From Psychrobacillus sp. FSL K6-4046 (GTDB lineage: Bacteria > Bacillota > Bacilli > Bacillales_A > Planococcaceae): DNA of 64,000 bases. The DNA is taken from contig NZ_CP152020.1 in the NCBI RefSeq assembly GCF_038624605.1, positions 3,465,312 through 3,529,311 on the forward strand, read 5' to 3'. Positions 14,991-30,632 of the stretch are shown piece by piece. The notes below the pieces were generated by a model that did no database searches, was not told where the DNA came from, and saw only the letters and a list, made by a program, of their open reading frames with translations. The translations under genes and the position numbers were made by a program. Position 1 is the stretch's first letter. Each line of letters opens with the position of its first letter.

Positions 14991-15058
14991 CAAAAGTTAC
15001 TCTCAAACTATTACGTTTGAATTTGCTATTAAAAACAGAAATGTAGGAGGAAATGAAA

Positions 15059-15586: not shown

Positions 15587-15597
15587 CTTTTAATATT

Positions 15598-15634
15598 AAA
15601 GGGCATTCCACTAAAAATGGAATGCCCTTTTCCT
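15598..15634 (+). terminator. Terminator of YceI gene
   Basis: Perfect 13-bp stem AAAGGGCATTCCA/TGGAATGCCCTTT with a CTAAAAA loop and T-rich tail, 12 bp after the stop. Confidence 0.85.
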
Positions 15635-15766
15635 ATTGCTATATGAAAACACTTACATTTTCACTTCAATAAATTAATTATTCTGAAATATATTATATAC
15701 TTTATTCTAGTAAAGTTTTATGTTAATCTATTGATTATTCTTTATTATCTGAAAGGACGGAAAATT

Positions 15767-16954
15767 ATGCCACAAATGGTCGCTTTGGTTCTCGTTATCG
15801 CTATTTTATTTATTGGAGAATTAGTCTCCACTCGGACAAAGGCTTGGATCCCTTCTGTTTTCGTTTCAGCCGTCCTTTTTATCATTGGCTATTGGACTTT
15901 TTTCCCAAAAGAAATTGTATCTATAGCAGGAGTGCCACCCGTAGTTGCAACTATGATGATCTATTTGCTAATTACAAATATGGGGACACTTCTTTCTCTT
16001 AAACAGTTAAAGGAACAATGGAAAACTATTTTAATATCTTTAGCTGGAATTCTAGGTATAATTGTCGCACTATTCACAATTGGTATTCTATTGTTCGATT
16101 TTGAAACAGTTGTTGTGGCGATTCCACCCTTGGTTGGTGGTGTTGTTTCTGCTTTAATCATGTCAGAAGGTGCCGCAAATGCAGGGCTCACTACTTTATC
16201 TGTGTTTGCCATCGTTATTTATGTCATGCAAGGATTTGCAGGGTATCCCCTCACGTCAATTGTTCTCAAGAAAGAAGGTAAGTATCTTTTAAACAAATTC
16301 CGTCAGGGAGAACTAACTATTGACGGAAATGTGGAAAATTCAACGGTGGATACAAAAGAAGAACTTAAAATGTTTAAAAAGCTACCTGCCAAATACAATA
16401 CGGATTATTTCAAGCTATTTAGACTGGCCTTTGTCGGGTTCCTAGCCTATGGGGTTTCTACACTTTTAAACCCTATTATTGAAATTAGTCCCTTTGTTCT
16501 TTGCTTATTATTCGGTATTATCTCAGGAAGCATCGGTTTCTTAGAACGCAATGTACTTCAAAAGGCAAACAGTTTCGGTATTTGTATACTAGTTTTAATG
16601 CTTTTTGTTTTCGACGCTTTAAAAAATGCAACTCCTTCTATGATTATGGAAATCCTATATCCGTTAGTCGGTACAATCATCTTAGGAGTAATTGGTATGT
16701 ACATATTCTCATTCATCATCGGAAAGATATTAAAGGTAAGTAAAAACATGGCGTTTGCTGTTTCCTTAACTGCACTTTACGGTTTCCCTGCAGACTACAT
16801 TATTACAAACGAAGTGATCAAGGCCTTAACCGAGGATGAGAAGGAACGAGAAGTTTTAACTAGCCACATGCTCCCACCAATGCTAGTTGGGGGATTCATT
16901 AGTGTAACCATTGTATCTGTTGTACTCGCTGGTATCTTCGTAGGATTCTTATAA
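15767..16954 (+). CDS. Multi-pass membrane transporter of an M20-hydrolase operon
   Basis: 395 residues with about ten hydrophobic segments and a charged cytoplasmic loop near 170-220 ('KKEGKYLLNKFRQGEL'). Glycine-rich 'PPLVGGVVSALIMSEGAANAG' lies between segments, and 'LTALYGFPADYIITNEVIKAL' near the C-terminus. The repeat-like layout recalls sodium/glutamate-type symporters, but I do not recognise the family firmly. The start follows GAAAGGACGG at 15767. The next gene begins 12 bp after the stop and its partner overlaps by four bases, so this is probably the uptake system for the amide or peptide-like substrate that the two hydrolases degrade. It has no close upstream gene. Confidence 0.75.
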   Translation: MPQMVALVLVIAILFIGELVSTRTKAWIPSVFVSAVLFIIGYWTFFPKEIVSIAGVPPVVATMMIYLLITNMGTLLSLKQLKEQWKTILISLAGILGIIVALFTIGILLFDFETVVVAIPPLVGGVVSALIMSEGAANAGLTTLSVFAIVIYVMQGFAGYPLTSIVLKKEGKYLLNKFRQGELTIDGNVENSTVDTKEELKMFKKLPAKYNTDYFKLFRLAFVGFLAYGVSTLLNPIIEISPFVLCLLFGIISGSIGFLERNVLQKANSFGICILVLMLFVFDALKNATPSMIMEILYPLVGTIILGVIGMYIFSFIIGKILKVSKNMAFAVSLTALYGFPADYIITNEVIKALTEDEKEREVLTSHMLPPMLVGGFISVTIVSVVLAGIFVGFL

Positions 16955-16965
16955 GGAGTGATAGA

Positions 16966-18198
16966 ATGATAGCCAATCAACTAAGAATAGAGCAGCATAT
17001 CAACCTTTTAAGTCAATATACAGCTACCCCCAAAGCAGGGGTAACAAGATTAACTTATTCAAAAGAAGATTTGGAAGCTAGAAACTATATAAAAGACATG
17101 ATGAGAAATTATAACTTAACTGTTTCAGAGGATGGCCTCGGGAATATTTTTGGAAAACTCGAAGGCCTCGACCCAAGTGCACCATCGGTTATAGTAGGCT
17201 CTCATTTTGACTCTGTACCAAACGGTGGAGCATACGATGGCGCGGCTGGCGTTGTAGTCGGGTTAGAAGTTGCCGCTTTATTTAAGGAACAGCAAATCCA
17301 GCCAGTTAACTCGCTGGAGGTCATTGCAATGGTCGAGGAGGAAGGCTCTCGCTTTGGCGGTGGGCTAATGGGCTCTAGAGGAATGATGGGGTTATTATCT
17401 GAAGATGATTTCCAATCCATCAAAGACAAAAACGGGGTTTCCGTAAAAGAAGCCATGACTAATATTGGTTTAGATTTTACTAAGGAAAAATACCGTGACC
17501 CGAAAACGATTAAAGCTTTTTTGGAGTTACATATTGAACAAGGTCCTATTTTAGAAGAAAAAAACATATCTATAGGTGTTGTGGATGCTATTGTTGGTCT
17601 AACTCAGCTAGAGGTTACTATTCAAGGCAGAGCCGGTCATGCAGGTACGACGCCTATGGACAAAAGAGCTGACGCATTAGTCACAGCTGCACAAATCATT
17701 TCCGCATTTCCAAAGCTTGCTGAAGAAGTAGGACATGGGACCGTTATTACTACAGGACAATTAGAAGTTTTCCCTAACGGTTCTAATGTAATTCCAAGCA
17801 AAGTAATCTTTTCAGTAGATATACGTTCAGGAGAAGAGGAAAAAGTTCAGCAAGCAATTAATAAGGTAATGGCACTAATTGAATCTAAAAATAATTCGAA
17901 CGTGCAAAGCGTCGCTGAGCAGCTGCTTCACACGACGCCAAAGGTTATGGACAAAGAAGTTCACTCTCTTTTAACAGAGGCATGCGAGAAACTAGACATT
18001 TCCTATTGCCAGATTAGTAGTGGAGCAGGTCACGATGCCATGATTTTCTCTGATTATACTGCATGTGGGATGATCTTTATCCCTAGCAGGAATGGTCTAA
18101 GTCATAGCCCGGAAGAGTGGTCGGATACTAAGGACCTTGCTAAGGGAGCAACTATTTTATATGAAACAGTATTACGACTAACGGAGGGAACAGCATGA
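16966..18198 (+). CDS. M20-family Zn-dependent amidase (N-carbamoyl-amino-acid hydrolase/allantoate amidohydrolase type)
   Basis: 410 residues of the hydantoinase/carbamoylase (M20C-like) family. Metal-site motifs are 'GSHFDSVPNGGAYDGAAG' (about 80-97; H, D), 'EEEGSRFGGGLMGSRG' (E pair, about 126), 'LHIEQGP' (H, about 194) and a final 'SGAGHDAMIF' (H, about 360). The dimerisation domain occupies about 215-330. Such enzymes hydrolyse N-carbamoyl amino acids, ureido compounds or allantoate to release the amine. The precise substrate cannot be read; no hydantoinase or purine-degradation gene is adjacent. It is translated from an AAGGAGTG site and overlaps the next gene's start (ATGA). Confidence 0.9.
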   Translation: MIANQLRIEQHINLLSQYTATPKAGVTRLTYSKEDLEARNYIKDMMRNYNLTVSEDGLGNIFGKLEGLDPSAPSVIVGSHFDSVPNGGAYDGAAGVVVGLEVAALFKEQQIQPVNSLEVIAMVEEEGSRFGGGLMGSRGMMGLLSEDDFQSIKDKNGVSVKEAMTNIGLDFTKEKYRDPKTIKAFLELHIEQGPILEEKNISIGVVDAIVGLTQLEVTIQGRAGHAGTTPMDKRADALVTAAQIISAFPKLAEEVGHGTVITTGQLEVFPNGSNVIPSKVIFSVDIRSGEEEKVQQAINKVMALIESKNNSNVQSVAEQLLHTTPKVMDKEVHSLLTEACEKLDISYCQISSGAGHDAMIFSDYTACGMIFIPSRNGLSHSPEEWSDTKDLAKGATILYETVLRLTEGTA

Positions 18199-19367
18199 TT
18201 AACACTCAAATTAAGGAATCCATAAAAAACAACAGTGAGGAGCTAACTGAATTACGTAGGAAATTGCATAGTGAGCCAGAATTATCTTTTGAAGAATTTA
18301 AAACTACCGAATTTATTTGTAACTATTTAGACAAGCTAGGTATTTCTTATCGTAAAACAGAGCCTACAGGAGTTATCGCAGAAATCTATGGCAAAACTGA
18401 TGGAAAAACTGTGGCATTACGTGGCGACATGGATGCTCTATCTGTACAGCAGCTAAATAATGTGCCGTACGCATCTAAAATAGAAGGAAAAATGCACGCT
18501 TGTGGACACGATGCTCATACGTCTATGCTACTAATTGCTGCTAAGGCATTATCTGAAGTGAAGGACCAGCTGCCTGGAAAGGTTCGCTTGCTTTTCCAAC
18601 CGGCAGAGGAAATTGCTCAAGGTGCTAAAGCTATGGTTGAACAAGGTGCTATGGAAGGTGTGGACAATGTATTCGGTATACATATTTGGTCACAAATGCC
18701 GACAAGTAAAGTATCCTGCACCCCTGGACCTTCATTTGCTGCAGCCGATCTTTTCACTGTAAAGTTCAAAGGTCGCGGTGGGCATGGCGCTATTCCTGAG
18801 GCATGTATTGACGCTGCCCTTGTAGCCTCTTCCTTTGTGATGAACGTTCAAACGGTCGTTTCTCGCACTATCGATCCACAAAGTCCAGCAGTACTAACAA
18901 TCGGAAAAATGATTGTTGGTACTAGGTTCAATGTTATTGCTGAAAATGCAGAAATTGAAGGAACAGTTCGTACGTTCCACCCCGAAACTCGTGATCATAT
19001 GGAACAGAGTATTAAAGACTATGCGGAAAACGTGGCAGCAATTTACGGAGCAACAGCAGAAGTAGTTTATACTCGTGGAACAGATGCAGTAGATAATGAG
19101 GAAGAAAGCGCAAAGCTTGTTCAACAGGTAGCAAGCGAAGCATTTGGTTCTGACTCTGTATATGATGAAAAGCCTACTATGGGTGGAGAAGATTTCTCAG
19201 CATTTTTAACAAAAGCCCCTGGAAGCTTTGCACTAGTAGGATGCGGAAACTCCGAAAAGGATACAGAGTGGGCGCATCACCATGGTAACTTTAATATTGA
19301 TGAAGATTCACTTGTAACAGGAGCAGAGCTTTATGCTCAATACGCTTGGGCCTACTTGAATAAATAA
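18195..19367 (+). CDS. M20D-family amidohydrolase (N-acyl-amino-acid/IAA-conjugate hydrolase type)
   Basis: 390 residues. 'LRRKLHSEPELSFEEFKT' near the N-terminus, 'LRGDMDALSVQQ', 'MHACGHDAHTSMLL' (Cys and His metal ligands, about 100-105), 'QPAEEIAQGA' (E pair, about 137) and 'HHHGNFNIDED' (His, about 365) are the M20D signatures. Family members remove acyl groups from N-acyl amino acids or conjugates; B. subtilis YxeP is an example. It shares an operon with a second M20 enzyme and a transporter, suggesting sequential breakdown of one imported compound. Start ATGA overlaps the previous stop. A terminator follows. Confidence 0.92.
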   Translation: MINTQIKESIKNNSEELTELRRKLHSEPELSFEEFKTTEFICNYLDKLGISYRKTEPTGVIAEIYGKTDGKTVALRGDMDALSVQQLNNVPYASKIEGKMHACGHDAHTSMLLIAAKALSEVKDQLPGKVRLLFQPAEEIAQGAKAMVEQGAMEGVDNVFGIHIWSQMPTSKVSCTPGPSFAAADLFTVKFKGRGGHGAIPEACIDAALVASSFVMNVQTVVSRTIDPQSPAVLTIGKMIVGTRFNVIAENAEIEGTVRTFHPETRDHMEQSIKDYAENVAAIYGATAEVVYTRGTDAVDNEEESAKLVQQVASEAFGSDSVYDEKPTMGGEDFSAFLTKAPGSFALVGCGNSEKDTEWAHHHGNFNIDEDSLVTGAELYAQYAWAYLNK

Positions 19368-19377
19368 CGTGATTTTT

Positions 19378-19423
19378 GAAAAGCTAATCCAAAGGATAAT
19401 ACATTCCTTAGATTAGCTTTTTC
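19378..19423 (+). terminator. Terminator of the transporter-M20-M20 operon
   Basis: AAAAGCTAATC pairs with GATTAGCTTTTT, with an inner CAAAGGA/TCCTTAG extension, followed by a T-rich run. Confidence 0.8.
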
Positions 19424-19578
19424 ATTTTCTAAAAATTATCTATTTACTCCCCTCTTAAGTCGCCTGCCATTAAAGAAAAGCGTTAAGATATACGTCTTTT
19501 TTTAAAATTTAACTCAATTGGAAACTATTTTCTGTATTTTTCGTATATACTAGGGAAAAAAGAAGAGGAGGTATTTAA

Positions 19579-19869
19579 ATGGAAGATATTATTGGACTTT
19601 TTATTGGCCTTGTTGCTATAGTAATGGTCTTTTCGATTCCGTTAACGGCTATTTGGACAACCCATTTACGCAAAATGCAGTCTATGAAATCTAAGGTAAT
19701 AAAGGATGAAATTGAACTAGAACGGCTTAAATACGACAATTTCCTATTAGAAACAGAAAAAATGCGATTAGATTTGCAAAACAAGCAAGCTAGTCTTTTA
19801 GAAATGTCTGCAGACCCCCTAGTCGTAGAGTTGCAAAAAAGACCTAAGGCGGAGACTCAGGCTTTATAA
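19579..19869 (+). CDS. Small membrane protein with C-terminal coiled coil
   Basis: 96 residues: one transmembrane helix (about 5-28), then a highly charged, heptad-rich segment (about 30-75, with I/L/M every three to four residues), suggesting a coiled coil facing the cytoplasm. The layout (one helix plus coiled coil, about 90 aa) recalls PspB-type adaptors, but I see no sequence match that would justify that name. AGAGGAGG is well placed before the ATG, and a terminator follows at once, so it is a genuine monocistronic gene. Function unknown. Confidence 0.8.
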   Translation: MEDIIGLFIGLVAIVMVFSIPLTAIWTTHLRKMQSMKSKVIKDEIELERLKYDNFLLETEKMRLDLQNKQASLLEMSADPLVVELQKRPKAETQAL

Positions 19870-19871
19870 TG

Positions 19872-19901
19872 ATCGTGCAGCTTTAGTTTGCACGATTTTT
19901 T
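19872..19901 (+). terminator. Terminator of the small coiled-coil membrane protein gene
   Basis: ATCGTGCA/TGCACGAT stem with a 9-nt loop, followed by seven Ts. Confidence 0.85.
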
Positions 19902-19933
19902 TGGTATAAGAAATGGAGAAAGGAGTATTTAGC

Positions 19934-21655
19934 ATGTCCTCTTCTACTAAAAATTTTTTCCAATTACTGAAAAGCTTAAGGTGGCCAGTTAAAATAGCAG
20001 TTTTAGCTATCATCCTTTCCTTATTAAGCACGGTCATTAGTTTAGTAGTACCTTTAGTAACTAAAACACTAGTTGACTCATTGACCTCAACTAGCTTCAA
20101 TTGGACTCTTATCCTATTGTTATTGGCTGTATTTATATTGCAGGCCGTGTTCGGTGGTTTTTCCTACTACCTTTTGTCCTACATAGGAGAATTTGTCGTT
20201 GCTGATTTGAGAAACAAGCTATGGAGCAAGGTTCTTCATTTACCGATCCCCTACTATGACCGACATGAAAGCGGCGAAACAATGAGTCGTATCACTCAAG
20301 ATACTTCTACATTAAAATCATTAATCACTGACCACTTAGTTAATTTTGTATCAGGTATCATAACGATCATTGGTTCAGTTATCATTTTATTTTTTATAGA
20401 CTGGAAAATGACATTAATCATGCTTATAAGCGTTCCACTAAGTATGGCTATTATGATGCCTTTAGGTTCTATGATGCATAAGGTCGCGAAGGCAACCCAA
20501 AAAGAAATGGCCTCATTTTCTGGATTGCTAGGTAGAGTTCTATCTGAGATAAGACTAGTAAAATCTTACCGGGCAGAAGAAAATGAAACCGTTAGTGGCG
20601 GAGAGGCAATCCAAAGACTTTATCGGTATGGACTGAAGGAAGCCAAGATTCAATCATTCATATCCCCTTTTATGACCCTTATTATGATGGCTATCCTAGT
20701 TGTCATTTTAGGTTATGGAGGATTACAGGTTTCTAATGGCACACTCTCTGCTGGAGACCTTGTGGCAATTATCTTCTATTTAGTTCAAATAATTTTTCCC
20801 TTCGCTCAAATGGCAACGTTCTTTACCTCCTTCCAAAAGGCTGTGGGAGCAACGGAACGAATTCAAGAAATATTTGCAATGGACAGTGAACCTGTTGAGG
20901 ATCAATCATCAACAGCGTTGGAGGATGGGATAATAACTTTTAAAGACGTTCATTTTTCTTATGGAGAAAACAAAAAAATTATAAATGGAATTACGTTTGA
21001 AGCAAAGCCTGGTACAGTTACCGCTTTTGTAGGACCAAGTGGTGGAGGAAAAACTACTATCTTTTCGTTACTCGAGAGGTTTTACGAGCCTGACCATGGT
21101 TCAATTTATTTTAACGGATCTCCTATTCACGAACTACCTTTAAGGGATTGGCGTTCTAAAATGGGGTATGTATCACAGGAAAGCCCTTTGATGAGCGGTA
21201 CTATCTTGTCTAATATGACTTATGGTATGACAAAAATCCCTCCGCTGGAAAAGATTATAGAGGCTGCAAAAGCTGCAAATGCCTCGTCCTTTATAGAAGA
21301 GCTTCCTGACAAATACGATACGCTTGTAGGCGAACGAGGAATGAAGCTATCTGGCGGGCAAAGACAACGAATAGCAATTGCAAGAGCACTCTTACATGAC
21401 CCTAAAATATTGTTATTAGATGAGGCTACCTCAAACTTAGATAGTGGATCAGAATCTTTTGTTCAAGAAGCACTAGAACGATTAATGAATGGTCGTACTA
21501 CCTTAATCATCGCCCATCGATTGGCAACCATCATGCATGCTGACCAAATCTTTTTTATAGAGCAGGGAGAAATTACAGGCACCGGTACACATGAAGAATT
21601 ACTAAGTAGTCATGAATTATATAAAGAGTTTACACAAGGACAAGGATTATCTTAG
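19934..21655 (+). CDS. ABC exporter, BmrA-like (fused permease-ATPase)
   Basis: 573 residues: a six-helix transmembrane domain (about 1-315) followed by a nucleotide-binding domain. Walker A is 'GPSGGGKTT' (about 360), the signature 'LSGGQRQR' (about 468), and Walker B 'ILLLDEATSNLD' with the catalytic Glu intact, so a functional homodimer is possible. Length and sequence style fit the BmrA/LmrA group of multidrug half-transporters. The ATG at 19934 follows AAAGGAG; an upstream in-frame start seven codons earlier has none. It may receive its own promoter downstream of the preceding terminator. Substrate unknown. Confidence 0.88.
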   Translation: MSSSTKNFFQLLKSLRWPVKIAVLAIILSLLSTVISLVVPLVTKTLVDSLTSTSFNWTLILLLLAVFILQAVFGGFSYYLLSYIGEFVVADLRNKLWSKVLHLPIPYYDRHESGETMSRITQDTSTLKSLITDHLVNFVSGIITIIGSVIILFFIDWKMTLIMLISVPLSMAIMMPLGSMMHKVAKATQKEMASFSGLLGRVLSEIRLVKSYRAEENETVSGGEAIQRLYRYGLKEAKIQSFISPFMTLIMMAILVVILGYGGLQVSNGTLSAGDLVAIIFYLVQIIFPFAQMATFFTSFQKAVGATERIQEIFAMDSEPVEDQSSTALEDGIITFKDVHFSYGENKKIINGITFEAKPGTVTAFVGPSGGGKTTIFSLLERFYEPDHGSIYFNGSPIHELPLRDWRSKMGYVSQESPLMSGTILSNMTYGMTKIPPLEKIIEAAKAANASSFIEELPDKYDTLVGERGMKLSGGQRQRIAIARALLHDPKILLLDEATSNLDSGSESFVQEALERLMNGRTTLIIAHRLATIMHADQIFFIEQGEITGTGTHEELLSSHELYKEFTQGQGLS

Positions 21656-22040
21656 AATCTATCTGTCATATTTCTTTCTAATGTAGAATAAGATAACTTT
21701 AACCCTCTAAATTCACCTAAGAAAGTGTAAATGCCAAGCGTAGTTTTTTGCTTATATAACAGGTTTCGGATGTAAAATTTTAACTTTGAAGTTCCCAAAA
21801 GACTATTTTATAACTTTATTTTAGTAGTAAAATAAATTCATATTGATACCATTAAATTACAACTTTTAAAATATTCATAACCATTTTAGGAAAGTGATAT
21901 ACAAAAACACCATTTTTTTGATAGTTTTCAACAACCACTTTCATAATAATTCAATTCTATACTTTTTTCAGTTTTTTTATGCTATCTTTATTATAGTATC
22001 TGATTCCTATTTAGATCCTACTCGAGGGGGGTTGAATTAG
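21656..22040. promoter_or_regulatory. Upstream region of the RRNPP regulator with a perfect inverted repeat
   Basis: 385 bp without a gene, strongly AT-rich. It contains a perfect 9-4-9 inverted repeat, TTTATTTTA-GTAG-TAAAATAAA, at 21815-21836. This could be a regulator site or a weak terminator of the ABC gene, since no T-run follows on the plus strand. Nearer the gene a TATTAT box lies at about 21990, with no good -35. GAGGGGGG precedes the GTG start of the regulator. Confidence 0.5.
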
Positions 22041-23330
22041 GTGAATATAGGGCAGCTAATCAAATTAGAACGGCAAAGACAAAACATGAAGCAGGAATAT
22101 TTAGCTTCAGGTATTTGCGTTCCATCTTATCTTAGTAGAATAGAAAATGGGTTAGTTATCCCTAGTGAGGATGTTCAGCAACACTTACTAAAACGATTAA
22201 ATATTCCGAGTTATGCATTGAATACGACCGGAAACGAAGAAAAGTTATTATACTTTAAAAACCTTTTTAAAAGTGTTATAAATTCACGTGACAAGGAGAA
22301 AGCAAAAACTCTTTATCACGACCTCCATGTCTACATAGAAGATCATCCCTTCGAACCTAACAGGCTAACACTTCTTGTGATGGAGACACGATTGATGCTT
22401 ATGCTACCTGACTATACAAAAGAGGTGCAATCAAACCTAGCTATCTTGGAAGAGTTTAAGAAAGAAATGTCTACCGATCAATTATTTTACCTGTCTACGA
22501 TTCAAGGAATTATTGCCTACCAAGACAATGAATTTAGGCAAGCTTCTGAGATTTTCTTGCAAATCTTTTCTCTAATAAAAAGCTATCGCATGGAAGACTG
22601 GGAAATGGCAGAACTTTATTATATTTCTAGCTTAGCCTTTTTATCTGAGTCTAGGTATATACTAGCTATTGATTACGTAAAATCTGCTTTATCCTATTTT
22701 AATCAAGAAATTTTAATAGAGAGATCAATTGAATGTCTGGTTATTTTAGGAATAGCTCAAAAAAATACTGGTGTATTAAAAGATGCTATTGCATCTTATG
22801 AAAAGGCAAGAGAAATAAGTTCTAAAATTGAATCTGCAAAATTTAAAGGAATGATAGAACAAAATATTGGAGCATGTTATTCTCTCTTGAAAGAGAGTGA
22901 TTTAGCGCTTTTTCACTTTAAAAGTAGTTTACAGGCTAATTCAGATCCCAATAAGAATGTGATTTCTATTTTATCTATTTTAAAAGAACATCATAAAAAT
23001 AATGATATTAGTAATGCCTTAATTTGGTTAAATAGTGGTTTAGAAATATTAGATAAGCTCTCTGAGAGTAATAGAGATTTTTATTCTAATCATTTCACAG
23101 TCTATAAAGTATTATTGCTTAATGATCCTAACTCTATTACAACCTTTAAACAAGTCTTGGACTATTTCGAGGGTAAACAAGAGTTCAAATATTGTTCTAT
23201 TTATTGCTATGTTCTAGCAAAAAAGTTAGCTAAAGAGAAACAATATAAACAAGCTACTATTTATTATCAAAAAGGCTTTAACTATCATATAAAACAATCT
23301 AAAGTATCTAGTTGGGAGGAATTGTCATGA
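22041..23330 (+). CDS. RRNPP-family peptide-responsive regulator (NprR/PlcR-like)
   Basis: 429 residues. The N-terminal helix-turn-helix (about 1-58, 'IGQLIKLERQRQNMKQEYLASGICVPSYLSRIENGLVIPS') is followed by about 350 residues of TPR-like helical repeats; clear ones include 'ALSYFNQEILIERSIECLVILGIAQKNTGVLKDAIASYEKAREI' and 'QYKQATIYYQKGFNY'. This is the RRNPP architecture, and the length is that of NprR (about 420), longer than PlcR (about 285). The stop overlaps the start of a 43-aa exported-peptide gene, the genetic arrangement of NprR-NprX. A GTG start is used, after GAGGGGGG. It probably binds the re-imported peptide and regulates genes outside the visible operon; targets are unknown. 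Confidence 0.88.
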   Translation: MNIGQLIKLERQRQNMKQEYLASGICVPSYLSRIENGLVIPSEDVQQHLLKRLNIPSYALNTTGNEEKLLYFKNLFKSVINSRDKEKAKTLYHDLHVYIEDHPFEPNRLTLLVMETRLMLMLPDYTKEVQSNLAILEEFKKEMSTDQLFYLSTIQGIIAYQDNEFRQASEIFLQIFSLIKSYRMEDWEMAELYYISSLAFLSESRYILAIDYVKSALSYFNQEILIERSIECLVILGIAQKNTGVLKDAIASYEKAREISSKIESAKFKGMIEQNIGACYSLLKESDLALFHFKSSLQANSDPNKNVISILSILKEHHKNNDISNALIWLNSGLEILDKLSESNRDFYSNHFTVYKVLLLNDPNSITTFKQVLDYFEGKQEFKYCSIYCYVLAKKLAKEKQYKQATIYYQKGFNYHIKQSKVSSWEELS

Positions 23331-23458
23331 AAAAATTTTTTATTGGTGTATTATGTCTTTCTGCATTATTAATAGCAAGCGTATCCAATGTAACTGAGAT
23401 AGCTGTAGATGCAAAACCAGAAATCACTTCAATCAAGCCTGGTTCTAAATTCCTTTAA
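23327..23458 (+). CDS. Candidate signalling-peptide precursor (NprX/PapR-like)
   Basis: 43 residues, missed by most gene callers. Its ATG overlaps the regulator's TGA (ATGA), and GGGAGGA precedes it. An N-terminal signal peptide (MKKFF, hydrophobic core at about 4-20) ends near 'SVSNVTEIAVDA', followed by a short hydrophilic tail containing AKPEITS (29-35) and ending SIKPGSKFL. Known NprX is also 43 residues, with mature heptapeptide SKPDIVG; AKPEITS resembles it at K-P-acid-I. A PapR-like C-terminal peptide (KPGSKFL) is the alternative mature form. Export by Sec, processing outside and re-import by an oligopeptide permease would be expected by family analogy. Confidence 0.85.
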   Translation: MKKFFIGVLCLSALLIASVSNVTEIAVDAKPEITSIKPGSKFL

Positions 23459-23504
23459 AATAGTTAGTTAAAAGAGGATTGGAATAATATTTTATCATTA
23501 CACT

Positions 23505-23537
23505 AAAAGGGAAATTGCACTTTGGATTTCTCTTTTT
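23505..23537 (+). terminator. Terminator after the regulator-peptide pair
   Basis: AAAAGGGAAAT pairs with ATTTCTCTTTT (one mismatch) around a 10-nt loop and runs into T-rich sequence, 46 bp after the peptide gene. Confidence 0.6.
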
Positions 23538-23623
23538 GTGTTTTATTTGGGGAAATATCCGATAAGATCTATTCTCGTACTGTGTATTCACTTAAATTTG
23601 TGACCATGAATACGATTATACTA

Positions 23624-23727
23624 GTTGTTCGGAGTGGAGGCGGCGACTCCTAGGGGACAAGCGCGTGGGAGAGACTACAGGCTCGACCCGTGCCCCCAGG
23701 AAAGCGTCCGCCGTAACGGAGAACAAC
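23624..23727 (-). repeat. Family-1 GC-rich foldback repeat
   Basis: The 23459-23836 interval holds a terminator on each side and this 104-bp element, with no gene. Ends are inverted GTTGTTC/GAACAAC. Read on the minus strand it gives GGCGGACGCTTTCC, GGGGCACGGG and TAGGAGTCGCCG, matching the order of blocks in the IS-borne copy. Confidence 0.75.
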
Positions 23728-23747
23728 GGCTAAGTAGGTATAAAAAT

Positions 23748-23790
23748 AAAGCAGTTCAAATTTTACTTATCGTAAAATTTGAACTGCTTT
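23748..23790 (-). terminator. Terminator of the DUF4288 gene
   Basis: Perfect 19-bp stem starting AAAGCAGTTCAAATTTTAC with a TTATC loop; the minus strand continues into TTTATTTTTA. It lies 46 bp after the stop. Confidence 0.8.
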
Positions 23791-23836
23791 TAAATTTGAG
23801 GTAGGTTTTGTCCCACCATCTTATTTTATATTCTTT

Positions 23837-24151
23837 TCAATAAGTTCTATCTAGGTGAGCTGCTTCATCGAGGATTATATGGTGGCTGTAGACTTCTGCA
23901 AATTCTAGTGATTCTTCAATTTTGTCAACCATTTCGAAAACATCAAGAATCATCACTAATTTTATTATTGTCTTTTCTCCAAAGGCATTGGTATAAGTGA
24001 CGTCTTTAAAATGCTCCTTTACTAAACGATCTACATCTTCAAATCTAGGTGCTCGAACGATGTTGATGGTTTCTTCAAATGTTTTATTAGGCATAGATTC
24101 AGGCGAGGAAATATGTTCAAATAATAGTTTGACCGAAAACGTTCTCTCCAT
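23837..24151 (-). CDS. DUF4288 family protein
   Basis: About 104 residues. The pattern 'FSVKLLFEHIS', 'FEETINIVRAPRFEDVDRLVKEHF', 'YTNAFGEKTIIKLVMILDVFEMVD' is that of DUF4288, a small alpha/beta family of unknown function found across Firmicutes and other bacteria. It has no signal peptide or membrane segment, so it is cytoplasmic. GAGGTG lies six bases before the ATG at 24149-24151; the GTG three codons earlier overlaps that site. It is a single gene ended by a strong terminator, and no neighbour suggests its role. Confidence 0.75.
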   Translation of the reverse strand: MERTFSVKLLFEHISSPESMPNKTFEETINIVRAPRFEDVDRLVKEHFKDVTYTNAFGEKTIIKLVMILDVFEMVDKIEESLEFAEVYSHHIILDEAAHLDRTY

Positions 24152-24374
24152 TCTTTTCACCTCAATTCCTTTTTTTTCTTATCTTAATTATTGAACATTC
24201 TTGTACTAAAAGCTACTTCTTTAAGTTGTGAAAGTCTCTATTGAAAATAGCTCTAAAACGCAAAAAAAATTAGCTACTTTCATACTAAGGTTTATATCTT
24301 TTGTTGTATAATTCGACTTATATTTCACTTTAGCCACCTAAAGTTATTAGTTCTAAAATACTTTTAATTTTAAA

Positions 24375-24411
24375 AAACTCTGTGAGGCCATTGACAAGCC
24401 CCACAGAGTTT
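24375..24411 (-). terminator. Terminator of the heterodimeric ABC operon
   Basis: AAACTCTGTG/CACAGAGTTT stem with a 17-nt loop, T-rich on the minus strand, just after the stop of the distal ABC gene. Confidence 0.75.
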
Positions 24412-24416
24412 CTATT

Positions 24417-26231
24417 TTAAATATTAAATTGACTTTCATATAGGTCAGAATAGAACCCTTTTTTCTGTAGCAACTCCTGATGTGTTCCAGATTCAATTAG
24501 CGTCCCATGATGGATAACCAATATTCGATCAGCATTTTCTATCGTTTTTAAGCGATGAGCAATCACAAAGCTGGTTCGTCCTTCTGATAGCCTATTTAAT
24601 CCTCGCTGAATCTCAATCTCTGTCTTCGTATCTATACTAGAAGTTGCTTCATCTAATATGAGAATGTCCGAATCCGCCAATATTACTCTAGCAATCGCTA
24701 GGAGCTGTCTCTGACCCTGACTAAGACTTGAGCCGCCGGAGGTGATGATGGTCTCATACTGATCTGGTAAGTGCTTGATGAAACTATGAGCAGATGCCAT
24801 TTTGGCTGCAGCTACAACTTCCTCATCTGAAGCATTTAAACGTCCATAGCGAATATTCTCCATAATTGTTCCAGAAAACAAGAACGTATCTTGAAGCACG
24901 ATTCCAATTTTTTCTCGAAGCTGGCTAATTTTATAGTTTTGAATGTTAACTCCATCTATTTGAATATTTCCAGAATCAATATCATAAAAGCGCATCAGTA
25001 GATTTATAATCGTCGTTTTGCCGGATCCAGTGGGACCAACTAATGCAACCTTCTCTCCTGCCTTTACTTGAAAGGTTATGTCCTTTAGGATAGAGGCTTC
25101 CTTTTCATATGAGAAGTTTACATGAGAAAATTGTACATCCCCCTTGAAGGATTTTATATCTAAAGCATTGTCCTTATCTTGCATGTCGGGTGATTCATCC
25201 ATAATTTCAAATACCCTTTCGGCTCCTGCTATCGCAGATTGAAAAGTGTTAAGCAGGTTAGATAGCTGGTTAATCGGACGGAAGAATTGACGTGAATAGG
25301 TAACAAAAGCAGCAATAATTCCAACTGTCGCCATCTCTTGTACTGTCATCACTGCCCCTACTCCGATAATTAGCGCAAGTCCAAGATTATTGATGAAGTT
25401 ATTGATTGGGCCTAAAAACCCGGATACTGTATCAGCTGCCATGGCAGAGCCTCGCAGCCTTTCATTTACACTTGAAAATTTATTAAACGTATTCTCTTCT
25501 TGGCCAAATAGAGTAATAACCTCATTACCTGAGATTGCTTCCTCTATAAAACCATTTAACTCTCCTAAATCTCGCTGTCTTTTTATAAAGTTACTGCTGC
25601 TATATTTGATAATTTTTTTCGTAGTAAAAATGATAAGCGGAATGATTAGCAGTGATACGATTGCTAAAATCCCGTTTAATGCAAACATCGCGATAGCCAC
25701 TCCACTTACCATCAGAATGGAGGAAAATATTTGGATAACGCTTTGACTCAATGCATTATTTAAGCTCTCTATATCATTCGTCACACGACTCATAAGATCT
25801 CCATGGGTCCGTTTATCAAAAAATCGTAATGATAAGGTTTGGAATTTAATAAACAATTCCTGGCGCAGTGTTTGGATGGTTTTTAGCGACACTCGCACCA
25901 TTAAAAATGTTTGTAGCCAAGTGAATATCGAAGATGCTGTATATACTAATGCTAAAAATATTAAGAAACGAAGAGTTCCATTTAAATCCTTAGGAATAAT
26001 ATAGTCATCAATTATGACTCCGATAAGGTATGGTGCTAGTAAATTTAGCAAGGTGGACACAATAACAAAGCCGCTTGCTGCAATTAGAGCTATTTTTTGT
26101 TTCTCTAAGTAACCCCATATTCTTTTAATGGTGCCTTTACTATCCTTTGCCTTGACCACAGGGCCTCCGAACCCTCTTGGACCTCGAGCCCTTCCCATGG
26201 CATTGGGTGGTTGAGTGGATGCTTTATTCAT
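24417..26231 (-). CDS. ABC exporter subunit with intact ATPase site (YfiC-like)
   Basis: 604 residues: a cytoplasmic N-terminal extension rich in G/R/P (about 1-30), a six-helix membrane domain, and a nucleotide-binding domain. Walker A is 'GPTGSGKTT' and Walker B 'ILILDEATSSIDT' with intact Glu, but the signature is 'LSQGQRQLL', with Q in place of the usual second Gly. Its ATG (26229-26231) lies within the last eight bases of the upstream ABC gene, so the two are coupled. Together with the partner it forms a heterodimeric type-IV exporter, like B. subtilis YfiBC (573 and 604 residues). PadR control is likely. The substrate is unknown; drugs or lipids are typical. Confidence 0.88.
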   Translation of the reverse strand: MNKASTQPPNAMGRARGPRGFGGPVVKAKDSKGTIKRIWGYLEKQKIALIAASGFVIVSTLLNLLAPYLIGVIIDDYIIPKDLNGTLRFLIFLALVYTASSIFTWLQTFLMVRVSLKTIQTLRQELFIKFQTLSLRFFDKRTHGDLMSRVTNDIESLNNALSQSVIQIFSSILMVSGVAIAMFALNGILAIVSLLIIPLIIFTTKKIIKYSSSNFIKRQRDLGELNGFIEEAISGNEVITLFGQEENTFNKFSSVNERLRGSAMAADTVSGFLGPINNFINNLGLALIIGVGAVMTVQEMATVGIIAAFVTYSRQFFRPINQLSNLLNTFQSAIAGAERVFEIMDESPDMQDKDNALDIKSFKGDVQFSHVNFSYEKEASILKDITFQVKAGEKVALVGPTGSGKTTIINLLMRFYDIDSGNIQIDGVNIQNYKISQLREKIGIVLQDTFLFSGTIMENIRYGRLNASDEEVVAAAKMASAHSFIKHLPDQYETIITSGGSSLSQGQRQLLAIARVILADSDILILDEATSSIDTKTEIEIQRGLNRLSEGRTSFVIAHRLKTIENADRILVIHHGTLIESGTHQELLQKKGFYSDLYESQFNI

Positions 26232-27966
26232 CTGAAAGGACCCCCTTCCCACTTTGCGTTTCATAAATCTCTCTATATACCTTACTAGTCTGCAGAAGCT
26301 CATCATGTGACCCAGTAGCTTCTATACGACCATCGTCAATGACTAATATTTGATCAGCATCAATGATAGAAGATACTTTAGAAGAAATGATAAACACCGT
26401 TGCTTCTCCGTATTGTTCTTTTAAAGTCTTTTGTATTGCTGCTTCAGACAACGCATCTACGGCAGATGTAGAATCATCAAAAACTAGAATCTTAGGCTGG
26501 CGAATAAAGGCCCGCGCCATAGATAAGCGTTGCTTCTGCCCTCCGGATAAATTGGTTGCACCCTGCATCAGCTCATGTTCAAATTCTTGCTCCAGTTTCT
26601 CGATAAACTCGTAGGCTACTGCGGAGCGAGCTGCATTTTCCATCTGTCTTATATCTGCATTTTCATTTCCATAGCGTAAGTTTTCCTCGATGGTACCAGA
26701 GAACAAGGTAGCCTTTTGAGGGACAAATCCAATTAGGCTTCGTAGCTCTTTTAAAGGATATTCCTTAATATCTTTACCACCTATTCGAATCATTCCCGTG
26801 TCTGGGTCATATAACCGAGAGATTAACTTTACTAGGGTAGACTTACCGCTTCCTGTTGATCCAATTATGCCAATTGTATCACCAGGATTCGCGTGAAATG
26901 AGATGTCCTTTAAGACATATTCACCGTTTTTACTATAGCTAAAGTTAACTTGGTTAAATTCTACTTCTCCAGTTACGTAAGTTTGATGTATCGGATTTAC
27001 TGGCTCTTGTATTTCAATATTCGTATCTAAAACTTGCTGAATACGGTTTGCTGAGGTAAAGGAACGAGTAATTTGCATTAATACATGACTACTTGAGATA
27101 AGACCATTCATAATAATATTAAGATAATTGATAAAAGCTAGAATAACTCCAACCTGCATAGTCCCTTCATCTACTTTGATGGCACCCATCCACATCCCAA
27201 AAACAACACCTACGTTTACGATAAATAACATGACAGGCATTAGCGATAAGATGACTTGTTCTGCAGCCATATTTCTTTTAGTCAAAGTGTCATTCACATT
27301 TTTAAAAGATTCTATTTCATGATGCTTTCGATTAAATGCTTTTATAACTCGAATACCAGAAAATGTCTCTTGTAACTTCGTATTTACTTTATCCATTGCC
27401 TTCTGTACCTTGACGAAAAGCTTGCCTGTTCTTGATGAGAAGAAATAAATAAATGCCATTAAAATAGGTATAGTCACTAATAATACTGGAAATAACTCTC
27501 TTGCAGTGACCCATACGATAATAACTGAGCCTATAAACAACAATGGTCCTCGTACGAAAATACGTAATGTCATCATTAATGCCTGCTGTACTGAAGTGAC
27601 ATCATTTGTCACAATCGTGATAAGTTTTCCCGTTCCATAGGTATCTGTGTTACCACTAGAAAATTGCTGTGTCTTTTGAAAGACATCTCTCCGAATGTCA
27701 GCAGCAAAATTGACTGCAGCCTTGGAACTATAAACCGTACAACCTGCTCCTCCTATTAAACCGATAAATGCAGTGACGAGCATTAATATACTCATCTGGA
27801 TAACATAGGCATTATCATTTTCCGCAATACCATTATCGATAATATGCTGCATAATCGTTGGCTGGAGTAAATCCATTGCCACCTCTAAACACATGAGTAA
27901 AGGAGCTAATATAGCAAAAACCGTATATGGTTTTAAATAACGAAGCAGCTTTTGTAGGGATTTCAT
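26224..27966 (-). CDS. ABC exporter subunit with degenerate ATPase site (YfiB-like)
   Basis: 580 residues, fused membrane and nucleotide-binding domains. Walker A 'GSTGSGKST' is normal, but Walker B reads 'ILVFDDSTSAVD': the catalytic glutamate is aspartate. The signature 'LSGGQKQR' is canonical. One degenerate and one consensus site is the hallmark of asymmetric heterodimeric exporters such as TM287/288 and LmrCD. GGGGGAGA precedes the ATG. It starts 16 bp after the PadR regulator stop and overlaps the partner gene, giving a padR-type operon of three genes. Confidence 0.9.
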   Translation of the reverse strand: MKSLQKLLRYLKPYTVFAILAPLLMCLEVAMDLLQPTIMQHIIDNGIAENDNAYVIQMSILMLVTAFIGLIGGAGCTVYSSKAAVNFAADIRRDVFQKTQQFSSGNTDTYGTGKLITIVTNDVTSVQQALMMTLRIFVRGPLLFIGSVIIVWVTARELFPVLLVTIPILMAFIYFFSSRTGKLFVKVQKAMDKVNTKLQETFSGIRVIKAFNRKHHEIESFKNVNDTLTKRNMAAEQVILSLMPVMLFIVNVGVVFGMWMGAIKVDEGTMQVGVILAFINYLNIIMNGLISSSHVLMQITRSFTSANRIQQVLDTNIEIQEPVNPIHQTYVTGEVEFNQVNFSYSKNGEYVLKDISFHANPGDTIGIIGSTGSGKSTLVKLISRLYDPDTGMIRIGGKDIKEYPLKELRSLIGFVPQKATLFSGTIEENLRYGNENADIRQMENAARSAVAYEFIEKLEQEFEHELMQGATNLSGGQKQRLSMARAFIRQPKILVFDDSTSAVDALSEAAIQKTLKEQYGEATVFIISSKVSSIIDADQILVIDDGRIEATGSHDELLQTSKVYREIYETQSGKGVLSDE

Positions 27967-27982
27967 ATATTATCTCCCCCTT

Positions 27983-28453
27983 CTATAGATTTTCTTTTTG
28001 CAATTGCTTTGTAATAGATTGCATGAAAGCTGTTAACCGAATTGTATTTTCCTTATCTTTTCTAGAGGCTTTAACTGCTTTCCTTAGCTCATCCTCCCAT
28101 AGATCGAGTGTCTCTTTAAGCTGAATGGCCTCCGAAGAATTTTGCCATTCCCATCTCGCTTGCCAATTGTCCCAAAAATCTTCTGTTTTTTGTTTAGAGT
28201 ATTCTTTAAGTCGAGACTTCCCCTTGTCACCCAGAGAGTAAATTTTCTTCTCCGATTCAAGTAACAACTCAATCATTTCCTGCTCCAGCAATTCCTGCAA
28301 AGCTGGATACACGGTCCCAGCACTGGCTGAATAAAATCCCCCAGCTCGCCTTTCTAATTCCTTCATCAGCTGATAACCATGCTTTGGACCTTCCTCCAAC
28401 AAATGTAGTATCGCTAGCTGAACAAACCCTCTTCTCCTTTTTATATCGATCAC
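27983..28453 (-). CDS. PadR-family transcriptional regulator
   Basis: 156 residues: an N-terminal winged helix ('FVQLAILHLLEEGPKHGYQLMKELE', 'ASAGTVYPALQELLEQEMI') and a helical C-terminal dimerisation arm (about 85-156). PadR proteins often repress adjacent drug exporters and are released by the exported compound, as LmrR with LmrCD. It begins with GTG, with AAAGGAA unusually close, so initiation may be weak. It is the first gene of the operon with the two ABC subunits. A 27-bp palindrome lies 10 bp upstream of the start. Confidence 0.9.
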   Translation of the reverse strand: MIDIKRRRGFVQLAILHLLEEGPKHGYQLMKELERRAGGFYSASAGTVYPALQELLEQEMIELLLESEKKIYSLGDKGKSRLKEYSKQKTEDFWDNWQARWEWQNSSEAIQLKETLDLWEDELRKAVKASRKDKENTIRLTAFMQSITKQLQKENL

Positions 28454-28462
28454 TTCCTTTAT

Positions 28463-28489
28463 GTATATCGATAATTTTAATCGATATAC
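28463..28489 (-). promoter_or_regulatory. Palindromic operator before the padR-ABC operon
   Basis: Perfect inverted repeat GTATATCGAT-N7-ATCGATATAC (28463-28489). A further ATATCGAT occurs at 28443-28450, overlapping the padR start region. It is placed to allow self-repression by the PadR protein; no clear -35/-10 pair was assigned. Confidence 0.65.
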
Positions 28490-28545
28490 TTTAGAAAGAC
28501 AATACTAATGATATCTGATATTCGGAATAAGGAAAACAACACAAA

Positions 28546-28582
28546 AAGGGCCAAGAAGGTATAAATAACTTTCTTGGCCCTT
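28546..28582 (-). terminator. Terminator of the Rieske-FAD oxidoreductase gene
   Basis: AAGGGCCAAGAA/TTCTTGGCCCTT stem, followed on the minus strand by TTTTTGTG, 27 bp after the stop. Confidence 0.85.
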
Positions 28583-28609
28583 ATATAACGGCTAATAACA
28601 TTAGCCTTC

Positions 28610-30136
28610 TTAGTTTAATCTTTTTAATGGTTCGAACGCTGGTCCCTCCAGCACCTCACCTTTATAGTTAAAGCGTGAACCATGACATGGACAATCCCAA
28701 GAGCTTTCTGCATTATTAAACGCAACATCGCACCCCATATGGGTGCATACTGGTTTAACTAAATACACTTTTCCATTCTCGTCCTTGTATGCGCCTACCT
28801 TTTTTCCTTCTACTTTTACAATATCACCTGTACCTACTTTTAAATCCTCTAGTTGGAGGTCTACTTTTTCGGTCTTACCTTTAACGAATTCCTTAGCAAC
28901 ACTCGCGTTAGCTTTTGTGAATTTAGTAATATCTTCTTTTTTCATTTTTGATCTTGTAGGTGCAAAGAATTCTGCAAATCGATTTTCTTTTCCTAATACA
29001 TTGTCTACCATAATTTGAGCAGCAACTACACTGTTAGTCATCCCCCATTTTCGGTATCCAGTTGCCACTAATACATCTGGTTTGTCAGAGGTCATTACAC
29101 CAATATAAGGGACTTTATCTAATGTTTCTAAATCTTGTGCAGACCATCGATAGTTATACGATTGAAAGTTAAACTTTTCCCGACCAAAGGCAGCTAACGT
29201 TTCATACTTAGCAGTGGTATCTCCCTCCTGCCTTCCTGTCACATGACCTTCTCCGCCCAACAAAATATATCTTTTCCCGTCTGATCCTAAGGCTGAACGA
29301 ATTGACCTTGTGGGTTGCTCTACATTAATGTACATACCCTTCGGAGAGCTTTTTTCTGCAGGAGCGGCTATGACATAAGAACGGTGTGGTTCTAACCGTG
29401 TAAAATATAAACCATTTTCATCATTAAAAGGATAATGGCTGCAAACGAGAATTTTCTTCGCTTTTATCTTGTGGCCGTCTACTGTTTTAACGATATTGTC
29501 TGATAGAAGATCTTTAGCTCGAGTCTCTTCAAAGAAATGTACCCCATTTTGTACTGAGTGATCAACTAAAGCTTTGGCATATTTTACAGGATGAAACTGT
29601 CCTTGGTTTTCTAACCTAAGTGCTTTTTTCACCTGATATGGAAGCTCTGTTTCTTCCGTTAGAGTAGCAGGTCCAATACCTAATTTCTGATAGGCGTCCA
29701 TTTCTTTTGTAACAGTATCTACTCCCGCTTCCGTATCTGCATATATGTAGGCAGGTACTTTTTCAAAATCACATTTAATACCTAAATCTGAGACGGTACG
29801 TTCCACGAAGTTAAGAGCGTCTGCCTGTGCCTCATAGTATAACTTTGCTTTTTCTTCATTAAAGGTATTGATCAGTTGCTGGTATACATGTCCATGCTGG
29901 GCGGTTACCTTTGCTGTTGTAAAACCAGTTGTTCCACTTAAAATTTTACTTCCCTCAATAACGGCCACTGATTTTCCACTTTTACTTAGTAAATATGCCG
30001 CAGTTATTCCTGTTAAACCTGCTCCAACTACTAATACGTCAACCTCTATATTTTCATTTAACTTAGGAAACAATGGGAGTTCATTATTAGCTAACCAATA
30101 AGACTCTAAGTTTCCCGGTAATATCTTTTCTGTCAT
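28610..30136 (-). CDS. yhfW: FAD-dependent oxidoreductase with C-terminal Rieske domain, YhfW-like
   Basis: 508 residues. An N-terminal DAO-type FAD fold with GxGxxG ('VVGAGLTGITAAYLL', about 35-50) is followed from about 420 by a Rieske [2Fe-2S] domain: 'CTHMGC' gives Cys-x-His and 'CPCHGS' gives Cys-x-x-His. B. subtilis YhfW has the same size and layout. The reaction is unknown; the fused cluster suggests internal electron transfer from or to FAD. AAGGAGGAAAC precedes the ATG. It is monocistronic. About 60-120 bp upstream lies an element shared with the HD-GYP gene at 61 kb (see 30192-30254). Confidence 0.88.
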   Translation of the reverse strand: MTEKILPGNLESYWLANNELPLFPKLNENIEVDVLVVGAGLTGITAAYLLSKSGKSVAVIEGSKILSGTTGFTTAKVTAQHGHVYQQLINTFNEEKAKLYYEAQADALNFVERTVSDLGIKCDFEKVPAYIYADTEAGVDTVTKEMDAYQKLGIGPATLTEETELPYQVKKALRLENQGQFHPVKYAKALVDHSVQNGVHFFEETRAKDLLSDNIVKTVDGHKIKAKKILVCSHYPFNDENGLYFTRLEPHRSYVIAAPAEKSSPKGMYINVEQPTRSIRSALGSDGKRYILLGGEGHVTGRQEGDTTAKYETLAAFGREKFNFQSYNYRWSAQDLETLDKVPYIGVMTSDKPDVLVATGYRKWGMTNSVVAAQIMVDNVLGKENRFAEFFAPTRSKMKKEDITKFTKANASVAKEFVKGKTEKVDLQLEDLKVGTGDIVKVEGKKVGAYKDENGKVYLVKPVCTHMGCDVAFNNAESSWDCPCHGSRFNYKGEVLEGPAFEPLKRLN

Positions 30137-30191
30137 TATGTTTCCTCCTTTATTTATACTAGTGTCTATCTATTCATGAAAGTTTATTCAA

Positions 30192-30254
30192 CAGAATCCA
30201 TTTCATAATTCCTTTTTTATGGATAAACACGAACAATTCAAAGAGAATAATAAA
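30192..30254 (-). repeat. Family-3 upstream element, copy A
   Basis: The 30137-30632 interval carries no gene. This block (AGAATCCATTTCATAATTCC, TTTTTTATG, AAACACGAACAAT, AATAATAAA in order) aligns over about 60 bp with 61151-61210. Both copies lie 60-120 bp upstream of a minus-strand gene. The rest of the interval is AT-rich; a weak family-1-like trace near 30283-30330 is too diverged to claim. Confidence 0.6.
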
Positions 30255-30598: not shown

Positions 30599-30632
30599 CT
30601 TCTTTAAAATATTTATATAGCTTCTTTACTGA

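Follow-up and report, generated by a model that had tools for sequence, protein, structure and literature searches.

A putative RRNPP-type quorum-sensing cassette of Psychrobacillus with operator-like boxes at its own promoter and at a neighbouring DUF4288-like gene

The DNA analysed here (the window) is a stretch of 64,000 nucleotides from the single-contig, 3.89-Mb genome of Psychrobacillus sp. FSL K6-4046 (contig NZ_CP152020.1, positions 3,465,312 to 3,529,311), in which the gene of a helix-turn-helix/tetratricopeptide repeat (HTH/TPR) regulator overlaps that of a small propeptide with a leader. The analyses indicated that this cassette probably forms a self-contained RRNPP-type circuit, in which a peptide-sensing regulator would control its own promoter and an adjacent DUF4288-like gene through a long inverted repeat. 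The features are presented in Table 1, where box 1 and box 2 designate the two copies of the repeat; G000 denotes the window's own genome, G0xx other genomes, and Lxxx regulator loci.

Gene pair and operator-like boxes

The coordinates and Pfam domains confirmed what a preliminary sequence-only reading had described, a 429-amino acid HTH/TPR regulator overlapping by ATGA a 43-amino acid leader-peptide gene. The regulator matched HTH_3 at residues 7-56 with 33.7 bits (Pfam cut-off 23) and TPR_12 with 31.5 bits (cut-off 30.1), and a GGGAGGA sequence was found a few bases 5' of the propeptide ATG. The propeptide, MKKFFIGVLCLSALLIASVSNVTEIAVDAKPEITSIKPGSKFL, carries a predicted Sec-type leader, accepted as in that reading from its residues, by eye, and from hydropathy. 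The regulator was present in 12 of the 19 Psychrobacillus genomes (G000 counted), with the other 11 proteins being 64-90% identical, and the overlapping peptide gene was intact in 11 of the 12, a recurrence beyond chance that sustained the earlier expectation of its conservation. In G001 (L014), the leader is interrupted by an in-frame TAG while regulator and boxes are present, and this genome may possibly represent a receiver without a signal of its own.

Analysis of the upstream DNA revealed that an inverted repeat of the form GAAAG...CTTTC, 52-53 bp long, starts 151-157 bp before the regulator start codon in all 12 genus orthologs, and that the TAT of the regulator -10 follows box 1 at 39-40 bp in every one of them; the hexamer 17 bp upstream of this -10 is TACTTT in the window. 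The pattern GAAAGT-N39-43-ACTTTC occurred twice in the window, against 0.04 matches expected, and none of 100 shuffled sequences reached two. The second occurrence, box 2, was found as an exact GAAAGT...ACTTTC in eight of the 12 cassette genomes. The predicted DNA fold of box 1 (z -2.8) is as expected of any inverted repeat.

Genome scans with two box models, in which 150 of the more than 6000 candidates in each genome were scored, singled out the same two places. Model R1 comprises 23 boxes, those of G000 included, and in G000 it assigned the two places of the locus expectation (E) values of 3.3e-9 and 4.6e-8, with nothing else below 0.09. Model R2 comprises 18 boxes, none from G000, G011 or G002, and it ranked the two places of the locus first in each of these genomes (E 7.5e-6 and 1.3e-4 in G000, 4.3e-5 and 1.3e-4 in G011, 4.6e-6 and 2.8e-5 in G002). 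Both places were found by R2 in 12 of 12 cassette genomes, nine of which had contributed to training. Over the 19 genomes R2 detected no other place at E < 1e-3. In the range from 1e-3 to 0.02 it returned six further places, four of them in cassette genomes; the remaining two were in genomes lacking the cassette, and five of the seven such genomes gave no match. The targets, which had been left unknown by the sequence-only reading, can be narrowed on the basis of boxes 1 and 2 and the model scans to two candidates, the cassette's own promoter and the DUF4288-like gene.

It is improbable that the boxes serve another regulator while the cassette acts on unlinked genes, in which case box, cassette and DUF4288-like gene would be associated simply through a conserved neighbourhood. 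The DUF4288-like gene is indeed the next window gene downstream of the cassette in all 11 other cassette genomes, as a conserved neighbourhood would predict. However, the box and the -10 were retained in the 12 genomes although the DNA further upstream can for the most part no longer be aligned, and at three loci from another genus of the same family, lying outside the R1 training set (L177, L178 and L179), the best R1 match lies just upstream of the regulator, although no window-neighbour gene was found beside it; two of these three matches are weak (E 0.015 for L177 and 0.086 for L179, as compared to 1.9e-4 for L178).

Several observations nevertheless weigh against control of both promoters through the boxes. 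The exact pattern occurs at four places genome-wide, equal to the four of a reversed control, and because of this equality the whole-genome count was discarded as evidence, so that position and conservation alone count. Box 2 is degenerate in four of the 12 cassette genomes, and the -10 of the DUF4288-like gene was chosen by a simple pattern, lying 37 bp from the box in six genomes and 32 bp in the other six. The R2 test demonstrates conservation and rarity rather than binding, since its training boxes are orthologous to the held-out ones; we infer binding of the boxes by the regulator from place and co-occurrence, and weaker targets may exist elsewhere, because of the limited number of candidate places scored per genome. 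Of 250 family genomes, 44 contain a DUF4288-like gene, and some of these 44 had no regulator match (for example G055, G073, G086, G181 and G200), so that the protein can exist without the cassette. Moreover, the promoter is not identical in G000 and G011, a genome assigned to the same species, since five bases of the box 1 spacer differ and the stretch from the -10 to the start codon carries a 6-bp indel.

The two exact-pattern places outside the locus were taken as chance occurrences. One lies between frames named by eye as reductase-like and transposase-like, and the other spans a hairpin within its own letters.

In the circuit proposed here, the propeptide would be exported by Sec, as its leader suggests, and trimming outside the cell would leave a short peptide centred on (A/D)KPEITS(I). 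An oligopeptide permease would return this peptide to the cell, where it would bind to the TPR domain of the regulator, whose gene lies immediately upstream of the propeptide gene and is probably cotranscribed with it. In G000, 10 places matched SBP_bac_5, the permease binding-protein family, above the cut-off, a usual number that shows import to be possible and nothing further. The regulator would bind the 52-53-bp repeat GAAAGT...ACTTTC before its own promoter and that of the DUF4288-like gene, and the peptide-bound form would activate, resulting in positive feedback on the signal and in one dedicated output gene. Activation is slightly favoured as the sign of control, as suggested by the fixed distance from box to -10 and by the poor -35 hexamer of the regulator promoter.

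Less probable, though still worth weighing, is a circuit of the AimR kind, in which the free regulator would bind the boxes and the peptide would release it, so that both promoters would shift the opposite way at high density. In the part of PMC6458997 used here, AimR is described as recognizing a pair of inverted 6-bp boxes, whose 25-bp spacer was called unusual (about 40 bp in the present boxes), and as being released by its peptide. However, no AimR was named among the best 60 of 158 matches of the family profile to PDB chains, which are led by Rap and NprR (designed TPR proteins apart), and a box upstream of the -10 is compatible with either sign of peptide action.

The DUF4288-like gene, whose Pfam score is just below the cut-off of 27, was present in all 12 cassette genomes and in none of the seven others of the genus; this co-occurrence is not independent evidence, because the genomes share ancestry and the genes adjoin in 11 of 11. 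An ATG at 24151, preceded by GAGGTG, would give a protein of 104 amino acids and may be the real start. The protein had no useful match in PHROGs, PADLOC, NCBIfam or PDB, DUF4288 was not mentioned in the literature searched, and the neighbours of DUF4288-like genes in six family contexts had nothing in common by eye. As its gene looks density-controlled in the proposed circuit, the cassette may offer a first handle on this protein.

Table 1. Positions of the cassette, boxes and associated features in the window.
Feature	Position	Strand	Description
Box 1, proposed operator of the regulator gene	21890..21942		53-bp nested inverted repeat, GAAAGTG-N7-AAAAC-N15-GTTTT-N7-CACTTTC
Extended -10 of the regulator promoter	21980..21988	+	TGCTATCTT; no good -35 hexamer; TGnTATn(T/A)T in 12/12 orthologs
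HTH/TPR regulator, proposed peptide receptor	22041..23330	+	429 amino acids, GTG start; Pfam HTH_3 and TPR_12; profile matches to Rap, NprR and PlcR chains
HTH DNA-binding domain	22059..22208	+	Regulator residues 7-56; first part kept when the sensor is swapped; codons 1-27 identical in G000 and G011
Proposed pherotype-swap unit	22124..23835		75% identity between G000 and G011 over 22100-23300, flanks about 98-99%
Propeptide gene	23327..23458	+	43 amino acids, ATG start; Sec-type leader and short tail; ATGA overlap with regulator stop; intact in 11/12 orthologs
AKPEITSI codons	23411..23434	+	Proposed signal and conserved core; every intact genus peptide (11) contains KPxIT, as does the broken one of G001
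DUF4288-like gene, proposed dedicated target	23837..24160	-	107 amino acids from GTG 24160; Pfam 26.9 bits
Box 2, copy of the operator-like repeat	24230..24281		52 bp, upstream of the DUF4288-like gene; exact in 8/12, place found in 12/12 by model R2

Peptide core and allele exchange

Comparison of the propeptides showed that (D/A)KPxIT is found in the tail of 12 of 12 genus ortholog peptides, while the residues after this core vary (SIKPGSKFL, SIGVGKSI, SVGEFI, FAKPSYNVN and others). In the propeptide of G009, a 14-residue unit of the form IQDKP(D/E)ITS(I/T)NK(F/L)A is present five times in tandem, the last copy ending differently; four codons of the unit (D, K, P and I) vary silently between copies, with one D to E change and one I to T change just behind the core. 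Since the core is conserved across orthologs and repeated five-fold in G009 while the tail varies, the mature signal is probably a mid-tail peptide centred on (D/A)KPxITS(I), and would be KPEITS-like rather than KPGSKFL. The K-P-x-I core proposed by the sequence-only reading as part of a peptide type of its own was recovered in the genus orthologs, whereas its other candidate signal, the SIKPGSKFL end, was abandoned on the same grounds. The portion of PMC4147580 used here likewise places the mature NprX signal in the mid-tail of the propeptide, and repeated pheromones are described as common in NprR-type systems in the part of PMC9765709 drawn upon. The five-copy propeptide of G009 therefore offers a hint at the mature signal.

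It is very doubtful that the small frame encodes a plain small secreted or membrane peptide without a signalling role. A leader alone would fit such a peptide, but the core is conserved and tandemly repeated in G009, and all 18 genus paralogs, together with 58 of 78 other homologs, have an adjoining leader peptide by a simple rule.

Alignment of G000 with G011 over 15000-32000 revealed a sharply delimited variable block. The two genomes are 97.8% identical at 15800-21600 and 99.0% identical at 24200-28500, as compared to 75.2% at 22100-23300. Identity is 93-95% per 100 bases over 21700-21951, which holds the five spacer differences of box 1, and the segment 21952-22123 is the same except for the 6-bp indel. 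Differences begin at 22124, become dense from 22173 and stop at 23835, beside the stop codon of the DUF4288-like gene, whose protein is the same in both genomes. The operator half-sites, the -10 and the first 27 regulator codons were kept, while the peptides end in DAKPEITSIKPGSKFL in G000 and in EDKPSITSIKPESKFL in G011. At the protein level, 7% of regulator residues 1-60 and 26% of the remainder differ, against 0-1% in the flanking ABC proteins.

Synonymous sites of regulator codons 61-395 are near saturation between G000 and G011, and for this reason the divergence is more suggestive of a foreign allele than of rapid local evolution. Most replacements fall in codons 271-395, where the nonsynonymous substitution rate (dN) was 0.339, four times the 0.079 of codons 61-270, and no such excess was detected between G000 and G002, whose peptides are nearly alike (dN 0.049 and 0.067, respectively). 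Since the agreement of G000 and G002 in the regulator (90% identity) is about equal to that in the flanking proteins (73-96%), G011 is the more likely recipient. The sensor and the peptide thus appear to have been exchanged as a block within one species, a putative pherotype swap that left the output gene in place, and the pair G000/G011 would constitute a natural experiment on the joint change of specificity of a receptor and its signal. Within the variable block, between the propeptide and DUF4288-like genes, there is also a G+C-rich stretch (23630-23735) that has the look of a repeat element by eye.

In terms of the proposed circuit, the TPR sensor and the peptide would form an exchangeable block, and different pherotypes within one species would arise against a constant set of operator half-sites, first part of the DNA-binding domain and output gene. 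More tentatively, the regulator might belong to a lineage of receptors in this family that drives a private two-promoter circuit with an operator of about 53 bp, whose sensor and peptide are swapped between strains, and the cassette might act as a minimal kin-recognition module with the DUF4288-like protein as its only effector. To our knowledge, an operator of about 53 bp is longer than any described for the RRNPP superfamily.

Distribution and further cassettes

Relatives of the regulator were found in P. faecigallinarum (90% identity), Psychrobacillus sp. BL-248-WT-3 (76%), P. vulpis (73%), P. antarcticus (65%), P. psychrotolerans (65%) and Filibacter tadaridae (49%). In F. tadaridae (L039/L040) the regulator frame contains an in-frame TAA at codon 58 and the downstream peptide frame is intact. 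The ABC transporter gene at 19913-21655 lies upstream of the regulator in 10 of the 11 other cassette genomes as well, with a gap of some 4-5 kb in three of these contexts (L169, L173 and L174). With regard to the statement of the sequence-only reading that no protease gene is next to the cassette, an M20-family peptidase gene is located three genes upstream (18195-19367), and nothing ties it to the cassette.

The search was extended to 250 genomes drawn from family f1, which we take to be Planococcaceae; NCBI taxonomy places Psychrobacillus in Bacillaceae. A regulator homolog at E <= 1e-30 was detected in 70 of them, and a leader peptide was assigned by a simple rule beside the regulator in 58 of 78 further homologs (L040-L117), the other 20 having none by this rule; the 58 include at least one assignment, that of L102, which seems spurious. 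Most leader peptides assigned by rule, among the 18 genus paralogs and the 78 homologs, carry a proline-centred motif after the leader. Because homologs are this widespread, the cassette is one member of a large group and not a singleton. In 16 genomes of one genus of another family (L126-L141), a regulator homolog had no convincing adjoining leader peptide by rule in any case, and the same search at the level of the class yielded five genomes with a regulator and no nearby leader peptide by rule (L146-L150). In other families, multi-copy propeptides were also observed: L142, L144 and L164 each carry three copies of SEPDHPKIV, and L157 carries nine of DNSPGIKSL.

Within the reach of the regulator search, the cassette is the only such pair in the window, as the sequence-only reading had stated, but not in the genome, where at least two further pairs are present. 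The second pair (L002) is located at 2015897-2017195, with a peptide ending in EEEAPRPTSSGNTN. A cassette of this type is present in 18 genus genomes; all have a leader peptide adjoining the regulator, and in 14 of the 18 it contains PRPTS. In the aligned upstream DNA of these 18 paralogs, GAAA/TTTC-like pieces are visible and may constitute a separate operator. The third pair (L003), at 3054293-3055492, has an HTH/TPR regulator on the NprR side of the tree described below and, 14 bp downstream, a 58-amino acid propeptide with IPIHPPIG three times; its relative L117 (G003) has FPIHPPIV once.

Relationship to known quorum-sensing systems

The comparisons drew on parts of PMC9765709, PMC10075063, PMC12700828, PMC5641580, PMC4970707, PMC4147580 and PMC6458997. 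Among the papers listed in the literature search, judged by title for the most part, there was no report on this quorum-sensing branch, and no paper joined RRNPP with Psychrobacillus. None of the Psychrobacillus quorum-sensing titles checked concerned such a system, and NprR was absent from the checked part of the literature on Planococcaceae-type genera and quorum sensing peptides; two large RRNPP surveys may include members of the branch outside their main text. The present finding supplies a named candidate target and a candidate DNA site for this branch.

The regulator combines a TPR domain with the N-terminal HTH usual in RRNPP receptors, and it is adjoined, in 11 of 12 orthologs, by a small gene encoding a leader and a short tail. 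The profile of alignment A1, built from 34 loci, matched the PDB chains of Rap3T (3.8e-33), NprR (1.4e-29) and PlcR (1.5e-12), designed TPR proteins apart; the match to NprR, which combines an HTH with a three-helix bundle and nine TPRs, covers positions 66-420, and the Rap and NprR matches span most of the TPR region. As a single sequence, the regulator weakly matched Rap3T (3.6e-5), PlcR (4.5e-4) and NprR (2.1e-3), in that order. These results support the claim of the sequence-only reading that the cassette is of the RRNPP type, lies outside the B. cereus group and has a peptide type of its own.

Descent from NprR, which the same reading had implied by likening the cassette to NprR-NprX, was not upheld, and NprR membership of the regulator was rejected. 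Identity to the NprR TPR chain 4GPK was 15.8% over 342 aligned positions, a comparison of the TPR part that leaves the NprR HTH outside, and lies below the rule given for the known cluster in the consulted part of PMC10075063 (an identity to reference NprR of no less than 30% at 80% mutual coverage). According to the portion of PMC4970707 used here, NprR W79, D107, Y118, E188 and Y223 serve the fold and the Spo0F contacts, and further residues are tied to stacking on the peptide lysine and to tetramer formation. In the regulator, D107, Y118, E188 and Y223 (Spo0F contacts) and W79 (fold) correspond to F104, E115, M189, I224 and L75, respectively, although at 16% identity the mapping may be off by a residue and regulator E188 adjoins M189. 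The residues W167 and H201 (lysine stacking) and R126 (peptide contact) correspond to F165, S202 and P123, an aromatic ring being kept at one of three; the tetramer residues Y223/F225 correspond to I224/I226, and the dimer residues N407/Y410 to T406/Y409, of which only the last tyrosine is kept. W79, D107, R126, E188 and Y223 are retained in two relatives, L142 and L152, that belong to other families of the same class.

The phylogenetic analysis (82 sequences, 344 TPR columns, midpoint root), which included 11 of the 12 genus orthologs and five of the 18 paralogs, placed the regulator in a clade with 47 of 51 family-f1 sequences and two from another family (ultrafast bootstrap 83). NprR and the remaining four family-f1 sequences (L003, L111, L113 and L117) fell opposite this clade, among the Raps (89-90), support being moderate. 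Within that side, NprR groups with L003, L117 and L165, and is nearer to L003 of the same genome as the window (96). In these comparisons NprR was represented by its PDB chain alone, and the class search, which scored at most four candidates per genome, may have missed NprR.

A true NprR-NprX system, in which the peptide-free regulator would be a Rap-like Spo0F phosphatase restraining sporulation and the peptide-bound tetramer would activate many degradative-enzyme genes, is accordingly quite unlikely. The same layout, the 43-amino acid propeptide (a length also given for NprX in the parts of PMC5641580 and PMC4147580 used), the K-P-acid-I core in mid-tail and the profile match would all agree with it; however, the Spo0F, peptide and tetramer residues are mostly absent, the single sequence is nearer Rap3T and PlcR, and nprR-nprX, according to the consulted portion of PMC4147580, lacks autoregulation and has 41 or more targets. 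Because of the low identity, the absence of most functional residues and the separate tree branch, the regulator is not filed as NprR, and it probably works in a manner like NprR-NprX without being its ortholog.

Among the other known systems, PlcR-PapR resembles the cassette in its HTH/TPR receptor, its short secreted peptide with proline and its autoregulation, and differs in the five-TPR fold of PlcR and in a weaker profile match, restricted to the N-terminal half. AimR-AimP of SPbeta phages has a similar layout of inverted 6-bp boxes set far apart, with a shorter spacer, whereas the present cassette is chromosomal and found a single weak match among 50,697 phage records searched at E 1e-5 (25% identity over 63% of the query). 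The L002-type paralog cassette falls into the same tree clade and also has an adjoining leader peptide, yet it shows about 30% identity, the PRPTS motif, and another locus and upstream DNA. Rap-Phr provides the best-matching natural chains of the family profile and also has its peptide gene downstream, but Raps lack a DNA-binding domain, which the regulator has as an HTH, and their Spo0F contact residues are absent from it. The likeness to NprR-NprX, a system with seven pherotypes reported in the B. cereus group in the sources used and with NprR-type proteins in 21 genera (consulted part of PMC9765709), comprises an HTH and Rap-like TPR receptor, the propeptide gene just downstream, the K-P-acid-I core and the existence of pherotypes, while the present cassette differs from it by its low TPR identity, the absence of most functional residues compared, its separate branch, the operator-like box at its own promoter and its DUF4288-like neighbour.

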